DNA from: Dehalococcoidia bacterium
GTDB taxonomy: Bacteria > Chloroflexota > Dehalococcoidia > Bin125
Direction of reading: 5' to 3'
NCBI GenBank assembly: GCA_022825855.1
Contig: JAJDWB010000019.1
Location: 1 to 64,000, forward strand
DNA length: 64,000 nt
Under the pieces are notes generated by a model. It was not told the DNA's origin, did not search any database, and saw only the letters and a program-made list of their open reading frames with translations. The position numbers and the translations under genes were made by a program. Of the stretch, positions 6,545 through 60,892 are shown in pieces (the first letter of the stretch is position 1; each line of letters starts with the position of its first letter).

Positions 6545-8254
6545 ATGCCCGTGACCCGTATGTCCCGGCTCTTCGGACGCACGCTGCGCGAGGCGCCGGC
6601 CGACGCCGACTCGGCCAATCACCAATTGCTGCTCCGCAGCGGCCTGATCGTGCAGCTCGCCGCCGGTGTCTACTCGTTTCTGCCGCCGGCCTGGCGCACG
6701 CTGCGCAAGATCGAGCAGATCGTCCGTGAGGAAATGGAGGCGGCCGGCTCGCAGGAAATGCGGATGCCGGCAATCCAGCCCCGCGAGCTCTGGGAAGAAT
6801 CGGGCCGCGCCGACTCCTACGGTCCGGTGCTATTCAACCTCAAGGACCGGCGCGAGCGCACGATGGTGCTGGCTCCCACGCATGAGGAGTCGGTGACCGA
6901 CCTCTTCCGCAAGGTCGTGCAGTCCTACCGCGACCTGCCCCAGAGCGTGTTTCAGATGCAGACCAAGTTCCGCGACGAGCCGCGCCCGCGCGGTGGACTG
7001 GTGCGGGTCCGCGAGTTCATCATGAAGGACGCCTACACCTTCGACGCCGATGACGAGGCGTTTCAGCTCAACTACGACGCGATGCGGCAGGCCTACTACA
7101 ACATCTACCGGCGCTGCGGCGTGCCGGTCGTCGCCGTGCAGGCCGACTCCGGCGCGATCGGCGGCAAGCAGTCGGAAGAGTTCATCTTCCTCACCGATAT
7201 CGGCGAGGACAACATCATCCTCTGTCAGGACTGCGGATACGCTGCCAACCAGGAGCGGGCCGAGTTCGACCGCGGCGAGTCGACCGGAAGCGACGGCGAA
7301 CTCACCGAAGTCGCAACTCCCGGGATCACCACGATCGAGGCCCTGGCCGACTTTCTCGGCATCCCCCAACAGGCGACGGCCAAGGCCGCCTTCTTCCTGG
7401 TCGACGGCGAACCGACATTCGCCGTGGTCCGCGGCGACCTGGAGGTCAACGAACTGAAGCTGATGAACGCGCTCGATGCCCGGGATGCGCGCCCACTGCA
7501 GCCCGAGGAAGTAGCCGAAGCCGGCTGGGTCGCGGGATACGCGTCGCCGATCGGCGTCGATCCAGCACGGGTCATTGCCGATCTGAGTGTCGTTGACGCT
7601 GGTGGCCTGGTCGCCGGGGCAAACCGGGAGGGGATGCATCTCCACAACGTGACCTACGGCCGCGACTGGTCGGCCGCGACGGTGGCCGACATCGCTACGG
7701 CCAGCGAGGGCGATAGCTGCGCGCAGTGCGACTCGAACCTGCAAATGCAGCGCGGGATCGAGCTGGGCCACATCTTCAAGCTCGGTACGCGCTACGCCGA
7801 CCCGATGGAGGCGACCTTCCTCGACGCCGACGGTGAGCGCAAGACGCCGATCATGGGCTGCTACGGCATCGGCATCGAGCGCTTGATGGCCGCCGTCGTG
7901 CAGGCCAATCACGACGAGCTGGGCATCGTCTGGCCCCGTTCGGTCGCGCCGTTTGATATCCATATCGTCCCGCTGGGCGGCGGCGACGAGGTCGCCGAGG
8001 CGGTCGGGCAGGTCGAGTCGGAGCTGTCGGATGCCGGTTGGCAGGTCCTGACCGATGATCGCGACGAGCGAGCCGGGGTCAAGTTCAACGACGCCGACCT
8101 GCTCGGCGCCCCGCTGCGTGTCACAATCGGCTCACGCGGCCTGAAGCAAGGTCAGATCGAACTCAAGCTGCGCAGCGAACCCGAGCCCTCCCCGGCGCCG
8201 CTGTCCGGCGCCCTGACAGCCGTCCGAGCGGCAATGGATTCGCTCGCCGGCTGA
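6545..8254 (+). CDS. proS: Prolyl-tRNA synthetase
   Basis: ProS charges tRNA-Pro with proline in an ATP-dependent reaction. The 569 residues match the bacterial form, which includes a YbaK-like editing insertion between class II motifs 2 and 3. Motifs visible are the PTHEE loop, FRDEPRPRGGLVRVREFIMKD, the editing region (roughly 220-390), then the C-terminal anticodon-binding domain. It leads a rightward translation block. In many bacteria rimP lies between proS and nusA; here nusA follows after a 146-base gap. Confidence 0.97.
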   Translation: MPVTRMSRLFGRTLREAPADADSANHQLLLRSGLIVQLAAGVYSFLPPAWRTLRKIEQIVREEMEAAGSQEMRMPAIQPRELWEESGRADSYGPVLFNLKDRRERTMVLAPTHEESVTDLFRKVVQSYRDLPQSVFQMQTKFRDEPRPRGGLVRVREFIMKDAYTFDADDEAFQLNYDAMRQAYYNIYRRCGVPVVAVQADSGAIGGKQSEEFIFLTDIGEDNIILCQDCGYAANQERAEFDRGESTGSDGELTEVATPGITTIEALADFLGIPQQATAKAAFFLVDGEPTFAVVRGDLEVNELKLMNALDARDARPLQPEEVAEAGWVAGYASPIGVDPARVIADLSVVDAGGLVAGANREGMHLHNVTYGRDWSAATVADIATASEGDSCAQCDSNLQMQRGIELGHIFKLGTRYADPMEATFLDADGERKTPIMGCYGIGIERLMAAVVQANHDELGIVWPRSVAPFDIHIVPLGGGDEVAEAVGQVESELSDAGWQVLTDDRDERAGVKFNDADLLGAPLRVTIGSRGLKQGQIELKLRSEPEPSPAPLSGALTAVRAAMDSLAG

Positions 8255-57576: not shown

Positions 57577-57652
57577 TGCCCGGTAGCTCAATTGGTAGAG
57601 CGGGCGGCTGTTAACCGCTAGGTTGCGGGTTCAAGTCCTGCCCGGGCAGCCA
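57577..57652 (+). tRNA. tRNA-Asn (GTT)
   Basis: The cloverleaf is complete: 7-bp acceptor TGCCCGG/CCGGGCA, anticodon loop CTGTTAA with anticodon GTT at 57610-57612, T-loop TTCAAGT and encoded CCA (57650-57652). AT-richer DNA begins directly after it. Confidence 0.97.
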
Positions 57653-57758
57653 TTCTTGCCATTCTGTTCAGAATCCAGTCACCGAAAGCCAGTCGCGAAT
57701 CAGACCCGCTACCATCTGTTAGCCGAGTAGGCGACCAGTTCGACGGACTTGCACCCAA

Positions 57759-58925
57759 ATGACATCTCTCCGGGTCCAGGTCAGTGGCTCAGTCCTGGAA
57801 GGAGCCATCCGCAGGTCGGGGCAGACTGTGGATCAGCTGGCGGAAAAGAACGGACTAAGGAAGCTTCCCGAGTGGATTGACGAATCGCTCAAGCCCACTT
57901 TGCGCCAACTGGAGACACTAGCACAAGCCACCATCACTCCCCTTGGATACCTCCTGCTGGATACCCAAATCGAAGATCCACTCCCGATTCCACACTTTCG
58001 CATAAGAGACCCGATCACTCCCGCGTCAACAGATCCCGATCTATTGGAGACCGTTCAGACCCTCGAAAAGAGGCAGGACTGGTTGCGGGACTACCTGATC
58101 GACAAAGGCCAAGATCCGATACGTGCTGTGGGTTCTGCCTCGCTCTCAGACACTCCACTGGCAGTGGCCGCGCTCTTGCACGAGTTTCTCGGAACACGTC
58201 CAGGTTGGACAAGCGCTCAGCCTTCCTGGGAGAAGTCGCTGTCTACTTTCAAGGAGGCTATCGAGCACGGAGGTGTGTACCTCGTAGTCAACGGCGTGGT
58301 CGGCAACAATAGCCGTCGAAGCCTCGAAGGGAAACCATTCAGTGGCTTCAGCCTCATTGACGAATACGCGCCATTCATTTTTCTCAACAACACCGAAGCT
58401 AAAACTGCGCAGATGTTCACCTTGGCTCACGAGATGGCACACATATTGTACGGCTCTAGTGCTGCATGTGACTTCGAACAACTCTACGCTGCTGACCACC
58501 ATGTTGAGAGGGCTTGTGATCGAACCGCCGCCGAGTATCTCCTGCCATCGGACACTCTGGCAAGCGCTTGGCCCAGCGAAGGTACGATAAACGACAGCAC
58601 GCTCGAACTTGCACGTCGGTACAAGGTGAGTCAGATTGTGGTTGCGCGTCGGGCTCGCGATTTGCGCTTGGTCGATGAAGACGCATACGCGGAGTTCTAC
58701 AGTGAATACCGAAGGTACGCTCGACCTGCCAGCTCTAGCGATGATGGTGGCGGCAACTACTACTACAATCAGAATTCTCGGGTAGGGCAGGCATTTGCCA
58801 GGCACGTTGTCGCAGCCGTAGAGAGTGGTGAACTTCTGTATAGAGATGCGTATTCCCTGACTGATATGTACGGTTCTACTTTTGATAACTACGCAAACTA
58901 CGTGAAAGGTCTAGGATTGCCATGA
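57759..58925 (+). CDS. ImmA/IrrE family zinc peptidase with N-terminal HTH-like region
   Basis: The 388-residue product has a helical XRE-like N-terminus (about 1-66) and a metallopeptidase motif LAHEMAHILYG (HExxH at 224-228) as in ImmA/IrrE proteins, which cleave repressors in mobile elements. Tyr/Asn-rich sequence (GGGNYYYNQNSRVG) precedes the tail. Base use is clearly AT-richer than the chromosome. The PIN gene overlaps by 4 bases. It probably acts as antitoxin or regulator for that gene; this pairing is known from other genomes. Confidence 0.85.
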   Translation: MTSLRVQVSGSVLEGAIRRSGQTVDQLAEKNGLRKLPEWIDESLKPTLRQLETLAQATITPLGYLLLDTQIEDPLPIPHFRIRDPITPASTDPDLLETVQTLEKRQDWLRDYLIDKGQDPIRAVGSASLSDTPLAVAALLHEFLGTRPGWTSAQPSWEKSLSTFKEAIEHGGVYLVVNGVVGNNSRRSLEGKPFSGFSLIDEYAPFIFLNNTEAKTAQMFTLAHEMAHILYGSSAACDFEQLYAADHHVERACDRTAAEYLLPSDTLASAWPSEGTINDSTLELARRYKVSQIVVARRARDLRLVDEDAYAEFYSEYRRYARPASSSDDGGGNYYYNQNSRVGQAFARHVVAAVESGELLYRDAYSLTDMYGSTFDNYANYVKGLGLP

Positions 58926-59428
58926 CGGCGACAGGAATATTCCTGCTAGACGCGAATGTCTTCATCGAGTCAGCCAAGAGGTACTACGCGTTTGATGTTG
59001 TGCCTTCATTCTGGACCACTCTCGTTGACCATGCTCAAGAGGGACGAGTTCAGAGCCTTGATAGAGTGAAGGACGAGATAGATCGTCAGAAGGATGAGCT
59101 GCAGCGATGGTCAGATGAGAACTTCAAGGAGTTTTATCAGCCATCTGCTCGACAAGATGTGGTTACCAATCTCAAGGACATTGTTGTGTGGGGTCATTCG
59201 AGCACACACTATAGACCAGCGGCGAAGCGGCAACTTGCCGAAGCAAAGCGGGCCGATGGATGGTTGGTCGCGTACGCGATGGCAGAGCCGGGCGTAGTCG
59301 TTGTCACTACGGAGCTTGATGACCCTTCGCAGCGGAAAAAGGTCCCCATACCGGCGATCTGCACGGCGTTTGGAGTCCCGTGGATTGACCCTTTCAATAT
59401 GCTACGCCAACTGGGCGTGGCATTCTGA
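58922..59428 (+). CDS. PIN-domain protein (DUF4411)
   Basis: The 168-residue product is a PIN-fold candidate ribonuclease: LLDANVFIES holds the first Asp, KDEIDR a Glu, ADGWLVAYAM the next Asp and TTELDDP the last acidic region. DUF4411 proteins pair with ImmA-type or XRE-type partners as toxin-antitoxin modules. The ATG overlaps the upstream stop (ATGA). AT-richer codon use. Confidence 0.83.
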   Translation: MTATGIFLLDANVFIESAKRYYAFDVVPSFWTTLVDHAQEGRVQSLDRVKDEIDRQKDELQRWSDENFKEFYQPSARQDVVTNLKDIVVWGHSSTHYRPAAKRQLAEAKRADGWLVAYAMAEPGVVVVTTELDDPSQRKKVPIPAICTAFGVPWIDPFNMLRQLGVAF

Positions 59429-59527
59429 GTCACCAAAGGGTCCTGGAAGGGTCGGCCAAGCCGGGAGAGCAGGCGGCTGAGGGTGGTTTTCTCGGGAGCA
59501 GGAATGTTGGGCTAGGGTGCTGGAATA

Positions 59528-60784
59528 TCAATGATTCAGCTGCAGCTTCGTGCGTAGGTACTCCATGCCTCGGTCTCCCTTGACGCGGTTGCAATTGCCG
59601 CAGAGCAACTGCAAATTGCTCAGATGATCTGTACCACCTTTCGACTGGGCAATGATGTGATCAACTTCCAGGTTGCGCAACTCAAAGTGGGTTGCGCAGC
59701 CTGCGCAGTATCCTGCTTGTTGCCCATAAAGCGCCTCGCGATTCTCGCGGGAATTGGGACGAGGAAGGCTTCCTATATCTGTGCGCTGGGGTACATCGTC
59801 GCGCAGCACAATGTCAGTGCGGCGGATTGCACCGGTACCAGCCGCCAGTCGGTGCATGACCAGTTCGCCCGCCTTTGGCGAAAGGTCAATACCGACCCAA
59901 TCGCGGCCAAGGTTCTCAGCGGCCACGCAGGTGGTCGCACAACCGCAGAAGGGGTCGAGCACCATGTCTCCCGGCTTGCTGCTTACAGAAACGACTCGTT
60001 CCAACAGTTCGATTGGCTTTTGCGTGAGGAAACCAGTGTTGTCTCTGGCGGAGTTGTTTAGCTTATCGATGTCCCACACGTCATCAAGGGGCACACCATA
60101 TTTCATCGCTTCGTCGAGATAGCGTCGAACACGCTTACCTCCTCCGCCATCAGAAAGAACATATTGCCGCCCGTCGTCATCCGTTCGAACCTTCTGCTTT
60201 CGTACCTTGACGTACTCATCGACTCCCTTCCACGGCCGCACCGGGTAGTTAAACGTTGGTCGCTTTCCGAAGGAATAGAACAACAGTGAGTCATGCCGCT
60301 TCTCCATATGGCCCTTCAGCCGTTTGTTCCATCCCGAATATGACCAAATGATTTCATTGCGAAAGTGCTGTCGGCCGAAAATCGCGTCCATCACTATCTT
60401 AAGATAATGGCTCATTGTTGTGTCACAATGGAGATATATCGAGCTATTCGGCTTGAGCAGGCGCGGCATCTCCAGGAGCCTAGCAGCCATGTAGACAAGG
60501 TATGACTTGTCAGAATCTGACGAGGCAGCGAGCAAGATATGTTCAAGTGCGGGGTGCTTCTCCGCGATCAGGTTGATCCACTCCACGTCGACGTCCTCAA
60601 GAGACCAAACATCCTTGAACTCAGCACCGTACGCAGGTGTTCCAATTGGGGCAGCGTAGTTTGCGTTCGAGTTGAATGGTGGATCCAGGTAGATCAGGTC
60701 AATGGTCGCAGAGTTCATCCCGCGCATGACTTCGATGCAATCACCTGTCCAAACAGTGCGCGGTGCCCAATTGCGTTCTGCCAT
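59528..60784 (-). CDS. DNA methyltransferase fused to HNH nuclease domain
   Basis: The 418-residue protein is a beta-class amino-methyltransferase: motif IV LIYLDPPFNSN (residues 31-40) comes first, and the AdoMet-binding DPFCGCATT (about 277) comes late, so the target recognition domain lies between. DPPF suggests N6-adenine. The last 60 residues form a zinc-type HNH domain: CAGC (360-363), VDHIIAQSKGG (374-384), CGNC (395-398). AGAGGAG precedes ATG 60784. A single protein with modification and a possible cutting domain, AT-rich and next to tRNA-Gln. A nuclease could instead be inactive or target modified DNA. Confidence 0.87.
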   Translation of the reverse strand: MAERNWAPRTVWTGDCIEVMRGMNSATIDLIYLDPPFNSNANYAAPIGTPAYGAEFKDVWSLEDVDVEWINLIAEKHPALEHILLAASSDSDKSYLVYMAARLLEMPRLLKPNSSIYLHCDTTMSHYLKIVMDAIFGRQHFRNEIIWSYSGWNKRLKGHMEKRHDSLLFYSFGKRPTFNYPVRPWKGVDEYVKVRKQKVRTDDDGRQYVLSDGGGGKRVRRYLDEAMKYGVPLDDVWDIDKLNNSARDNTGFLTQKPIELLERVVSVSSKPGDMVLDPFCGCATTCVAAENLGRDWVGIDLSPKAGELVMHRLAAGTGAIRRTDIVLRDDVPQRTDIGSLPRPNSRENREALYGQQAGYCAGCATHFELRNLEVDHIIAQSKGGTDHLSNLQLLCGNCNRVKGDRGMEYLRTKLQLNH

Positions 60785-60818
60785 GATGCTCCTCTGCAAC
60801 TGTGATGATCTTCTGGTT

Positions 60819-60892
60819 TGGCTGCCGAGCCAGGATTCGAACCTGAACTGAGGGATCCAAAGTCCCTAGTGCTACCGTTACACTACTCGGCA
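60819..60892 (-). tRNA. tRNA-Gln (TTG)
   Basis: Minus-strand cloverleaf with acceptor TGCCGAG/CTCGGCA, anticodon loop CTTTGGA with anticodon TTG (60860-60858), T-loop TTCGAAT and encoded CCA (60821-60819). Confidence 0.96.

Follow-up and report, generated by a model that had tools for sequence, protein, structure and literature searches.

A single gene in the 64,000-nt stretch of Dehalococcoidia DNA analyzed here (the window) probably encodes a complete restriction-modification (RM) enzyme, as judged from its sequence and from comparison with its relatives. In the mechanism we propose, a beta-class DNA methyltransferase (MTase) would bind a specific site through its internal target-recognition segment (TRD) and methylate it, probably at N6-adenine, and a C-terminal HNH domain, positioned by the same TRD, would cut or nick DNA that lacks the methyl group at that site. 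The family is mobile, with many relatives riding on IS1595-type transposons; its specificity would be changed through TRD exchange, as seen in tandem paralogues, and slippage in poly-G/C tracts, which are seen in relatives together with frameshifts, may turn the gene on and off. The window copy is an intact member of this family, located in a tRNA-bounded accessory spot without transposase, terminal repeats, or tract. It is possible, at a little under even chances, that such proteins form a distinct and widespread class of one-gene RM enzymes built from a beta-class MTase and an HNH domain, which spreads between phyla on IS1595-type transposons, exchanges its TRD, and is subject to poly-G/C contingency switching that in some members affects only the nuclease.

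Gene, domains, and genomic setting

As listed in Table 1, the reading frame is on the minus strand, a detail absent from the earlier note, and its N-terminus can be aligned with those of relatives. By its motif order (IV-TRD-I), the predicted MTase is of class beta, and Pfam N6_N4_Mtase covers aa 28-305 of the protein (E 5e-42). Because DPPF occupies motif IV, N6-adenine is the probable methylation target, judging from MTase families. The HNH domain (Pfam HNH, aa 360-405, E 2e-13; HNH_5, 2e-11) contains C360, C363, D375, H376, N390, C395, C398, N399, and K402, with CxxC pairs at aa 360/363 and 395/398 and the DH pair at 375/376. The earlier note had described a beta-class MTase with DPPF, TRD, and DPFCG in this order, followed in the same chain by an HNH domain with both CxxC pairs; all of these elements were located, and its numbering of His376 is correct. 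Its statement that no separate restriction gene adjoins the fusion also holds, the island neighbors being an ImmA/IrrE peptidase gene and a DUF4411 gene.

Table 1. Positions in the window of the fusion gene, its parts, and the features around it
Feature	Position	Strand	Remarks
tRNA-Asn(gtt), left border of the island	57577..57652	+
Low-GC island between tRNA-Asn and tRNA-Gln, 3.2 kb	57653..60818		GC 0.54 vs ~0.68 around
ImmA/IrrE (Peptidase_M78) gene	57759..58925	+	Pfam PF06114 1e-15; same island, separate from the enzyme
DUF4411 gene	58922..59428	+	Pfam PF14367 9e-50; separate from the enzyme
MTase-HNH fusion gene, 418 aa	59528..60784	-	ATG at 60784, TGA ending at 59528
Predicted HNH nuclease domain, aa 356-404	59573..59719	-	Pfam, residue conservation, fold
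MTase motif I DPFCG, aa 277-281	59942..59956	-	Alignment of relatives
Target-recognition segment (TRD), ~aa 150-238	60071..60337	-	Hypervariable among relatives
MTase motif IV DPPF, aa 34-37	60674..60685	-	Invariant in A1 and A2
Shine-Dalgarno-like AGAGGAG, 5' of the MTase-HNH ATG	60789..60795	-	Direct sequence reading
tRNA-Gln(ttg), right border of the island	60819..60892	-

The whole protein was modeled by AlphaFold2 from an alignment of 58 relatives with a mean pLDDT of 90.9, and the MTase part of the model matches the beta-class MTases M.BceJIV, CcrM, MboIIA, and RsrI with Z-scores of 24-27. The HNH part, modeled separately (pLDDT 89.5), aligns with HNH nucleases, among them Cas9-HNH, Gme HNH, and McrA, at predicted-fold Z-scores of 6.5-8.7, which are modest alone and are strengthened by Pfam and profile matches at E 5e-12. 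The residues DH...N...N and the two CxxC pairs lie on this HNH fold, as in HNH nucleases of the beta-beta-alpha-Me, Cys4 zinc type.

The gene lies in an island (57.6-60.8 kb) in which the GC content drops from ~0.68 to 0.50-0.57 and whose right flank is formed by tRNA-Gln/tRNA-Leu. Because the ATG is located 34 bp beyond the 3' end of tRNA-Gln and both share a strand, co-transcription with the tRNAs is possible. The ImmA/IrrE and DUF4411 genes (57759-59428) overlap each other by 4 bp on the strand opposite to the fusion gene, and they look like a toxin-antitoxin-type pair. Among relatives within the genus, the tRNA-Asn/tRNA-Gln spacer is empty and 47 bp long in G309 and measures ~0.2 kb in G301 and G302; elsewhere in the genus, it reaches 0.9-2.0 kb and carries differing ORFs. 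Since both its length and its cargo vary across the genus, the tRNA-Asn/tRNA-Gln interval is an accessory spot. Some of the ORFs in these spacers (L073-L085) are HicA/HicB-like or DUF3800-like, as judged by eye. Direct repeats of tRNA-Asn were also searched for as att sites flanking the window insert, and none were found; partial copies of the tRNA-Asn 3' part do occur within the spacer inserts of L073, L076, and L077.

The possibility that the window copy is itself a transposon was rejected, as its genome contains no IS1595 transposase at E 1e-25. We detected no TIR-like sequence or inverted repeat surrounding the gene, and the window copy thus shows none of the features of an IS1595 passenger (transposase, terminal inverted repeats (TIRs), and 8-bp target duplication (TSD)). 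Neither the reading frame nor the sequence preceding it contains a simple repeat tract, and the gene has no G/C run of 9 or more. Mobility and phase variation are therefore properties of the relatives.

Distribution, transposons, and G/C tracts of the relatives

Matches at 1e-30 or better are present in 13 of 15 genomes of the genus, several of which have more than one, and 28 of 301 genomes in the phylum sample match at 1e-40. A scan of species genomes yielded at least 565 candidate relatives, and the best 80 of these come from Chloroflexota, Poribacteria, Proteobacteria, Bacteroidia, Cyanobacteria, Planctomycetes, Nitrospirales, Rickettsiales, and others; by their isolate names, many of these 80 look as if they derive from sponge MAG sets. 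The phylum counts on the MTase tree suggest horizontal transfer, with the proviso that MAG bins can be contaminated. More than 100 fused MTase-HNH homologues were compared. In the neighborhoods of the 100 relative loci examined, the only recurrent genes are the IS1595 transposase and chromosomal neighbors, and a recurrent partner gene was accordingly rejected; several apparent recurrent neighbor clusters proved to be antisense ORFs of the MTase gene. No gene for a type III Res subunit was found in the window island, and none recurs in the 100 relative loci.

A DDE_Tnp_IS1595 transposase gene adjoins the MTase gene in more than 20 loci. Nine units have TIRs together with exact 8-bp TSDs (L091, L094, L112, L115, L116, L121, L130, L164, and L180), and the TIRs of MTase-HNH units are 19-32 bp long, mostly GGGGATTATA...; a tenth unit with TIRs and an 8-bp TSD (L281) contains an ORF that lacks the MTase N-terminus. 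The 2,567-bp element of G304 (L094) is missing at the corresponding site in each of the other 14 genus genomes, including that of the window, where its flanks are joined without an insert. In L121 (5869-7407), the MTase-HNH gene is the sole gene between inverted repeats of 29 bp, next to an 8-bp TSD. With no transposase inside, this unit would be a mobile cassette that needs a transposase in trans. At the other loci whose unit lacks a transposase, candidate TIRs were rejected, as the matches lack a TSD and are little more frequent than in the mismatched-flank control. Elements of the same type in the genus, with TIRs and an 8-bp TSD, also carry complete two-gene type II RM systems as passengers, namely an N6_N4 MTase with a BglII-type endonuclease (L288:3929-6804) and a C5-MTase with GIY-YIG (L284:3782-6899). 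A KilA-N domain protein is the passenger of a further IS1595-type element (L289:2245-5188). The majority of members, including the window copy, are located outside recognizable elements. Passenger-bearing IS1595 elements are known as transporter ISs (Siguier et al. 2009, as cited in PMC3129680 and PMC5704250). The elements of the relatives share with them the DDE_Tnp_IS1595 transposase, TIRs, 8-bp target duplications, and the carriage of passenger genes; the passenger in these elements is an MTase-HNH gene.

G/C runs of 9 or more occur 10 times in the 159.6 kb of MTase-HNH genes (114 related genes) and 7 times in 1,006 kb of flanks, so that the genes are about nine times denser in such runs (conditional p about 2e-5). 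Six copies are frameshifted at a G/C run (L010 G9, L037 G12, L091 C8, L094 G9, L180 G9, and L020 C9), with the main caveat that many of the genomes are MAGs, which are prone to short-read indel errors in long G runs. In other relatives, the frame is intact and the run lies within the TRD or close to the start. From these tracts, we infer that slippage switches the gene on and off in relatives. The run is situated between the MTase and an out-of-frame HNH part in L020 (C9 near 1418) and L180 (G9 near 6915), and slippage there would therefore switch the nuclease only, with the MTase staying on. Phase variation through SSR tracts is known from a type IIG system of Campylobacter (PMC6321876).

Nuclease conservation, TRD exchange, and alternative explanations

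Conservation was counted in 113 unique fused HNH stretches, which were selected by profile without a motif filter. C360 is kept in all 113, H376 in 110, N390 in 112, N399 in 108, and K402 in 112, and degenerate HNH active sites were found in four homologues (L129, L174, L178, and L185). If close homologues had lost their HNH catalytic residues, this would have counted against an enzyme of this kind, as named beforehand, but H376, N390, and N399 do not show such a pattern. A conserved nuclease active site alone is silent on whether cleavage would be site-specific or methylation-sensitive.

The nearest MTases without HNH carry a C-terminal Mrr_cat or PD-(D/E)XK-like domain (Pfam) in the HNH position. 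On a tree of the MTase part with the TRD left out, HNH and non-HNH types are split by one branch with a support of 100; as there is one such split and not several, recurrent exchange between HNH and Mrr domains was rejected. These MTase-Mrr_cat fusions, both phage and bacterial (PHROG 67 type; L018, L039, and L042), have a closely related MTase module and the same TRD position, and they too end in a nuclease-type domain, but this domain is Mrr-like PD-(D/E)XK rather than HNH, and they form a separate clade. Some Mrr_cat domains of the L018, L039, and L042 type have atypical active-site letters (SVK for QVK/EVK). Phages also carry related MTases, which are common among Streptomyces phages and mycobacteriophages.

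In 103 aligned sequences, the mean pairwise identity is 17% in the TRD versus 56-70% elsewhere. Tandem paralogues show the same contrast within single loci (three genes each in L166 and L147 and two in L170), where the N, C, and HNH parts are 90-100% identical and the TRDs only 21-35%. With a separate cutting enzyme, an altered TRD in the MTase would uncouple protection from cleavage, which a nuclease in the same chain would avoid. A single TRD thus probably guides methylation and cleavage alike, and we take the exchange of TRDs on a constant MTase-HNH frame as the main argument for a coupled RM enzyme.

The fusion could instead be a solitary epigenetic MTase whose methylation protects or regulates, with the HNH part serving only for DNA binding, as had been offered before as an alternative to cleavage, or as a structural zinc module. 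The gene does stand alone, with no recurrent partner except the IS1595 transposase, and TRD variation also occurs in solitary phage MTases. We consider this explanation unlikely, because the catalytic His and Asn are almost unchanged across highly diverged members of the 113 fused stretches, which would be needless for binding only; the sister clade, in which another nuclease-type domain takes the HNH position, also argues against it. The chance that the protein is a modification-dependent (type IV-like) nuclease, whose MTase part reads or makes the cleavage signal, is very small. The similarity of the HNH fold to McrA, among others, would fit such an enzyme, but the Pfam scan of the window protein found no reader domain (SRA, EVE, wH, or similar), and an intact MTase active site coupled to the cutting of methylated DNA would be fatal to the host. 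Between the options raised in the earlier note, the comparison therefore favors a compact RM enzyme, on the basis of HNH conservation, TRD exchange, the Mrr_cat sister clade, and the RM systems found in the passenger slot of the transposons, and it leaves the modification-dependent option unsupported.

The enzyme may also serve chiefly to maintain the transposon, either by killing cells that lose the element, as in RM-type addiction, or by influencing transposition, with phage defense being secondary. RM systems are established post-segregational killers, and both the repeated carriage in IS1595-type elements with TIRs and TSDs and the presence of other RM systems in the same element type are consistent with this role. 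Most members, including the window copy, are outside recognizable elements, however, and phase-variable off states would undo addiction, so that we regard transposon maintenance as improbable. It is a claim about benefit and is compatible with the RM mechanism.

If the RM reading is correct, a gene of ~1.3 kb is a complete, mobile, and re-targetable RM system, and this would explain the spread and turnover of RM specificity in host-associated communities. It would also represent a compact enzyme type in which the swap of one segment alters methylation and cutting jointly, and the tracts that switch the nuclease only, as opposed to the whole gene, would bear on how such an enzyme spares its host.

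Comparison with known systems

No experimental description of MTase-HNH fusions appeared in the literature covered, although this absence is weak evidence, since most subscription journals and REBASE lie outside that coverage. The solitary or type II MTases CcrM, M.BceJIV, MboIIA, and RsrI share the MTase fold (Z 24-27) and the motif order with the window protein, but their chains contain no nuclease domain. The Mod subunits of type III systems are known to undergo both TRD exchange and phase variation. EcoP15I Mod and Mbo45V Mod also have in common with the window protein a beta-class MTase and an internal TRD (fold matches 4zcf and 7dsu), whereas the MTase-HNH protein is much shorter, has the HNH domain in the same chain, and is not accompanied by a Res helicase-nuclease subunit.

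In type IIC and IIG RM enzymes, the MTase and the endonuclease are contained in one polypeptide (review, PMC12707154). The window protein resembles them in that it joins MTase, TRD, and predicted nuclease in one chain, with Pfam N6_N4_Mtase and HNH matches in a single high-confidence model and no separate endonuclease gene. In classical IIG enzymes, the MTase is of the gamma class and a PD-(D/E)XK domain lies at the N-terminus, and the window protein departs from this layout with its beta-class MTase (IV-TRD-I) and C-terminal HNH domain. Because its proposed working is IIC-like and its layout differs from that of classical IIG enzymes, we file the MTase-HNH protein as a putative variant of type IIC rather than as a classical IIG enzyme.
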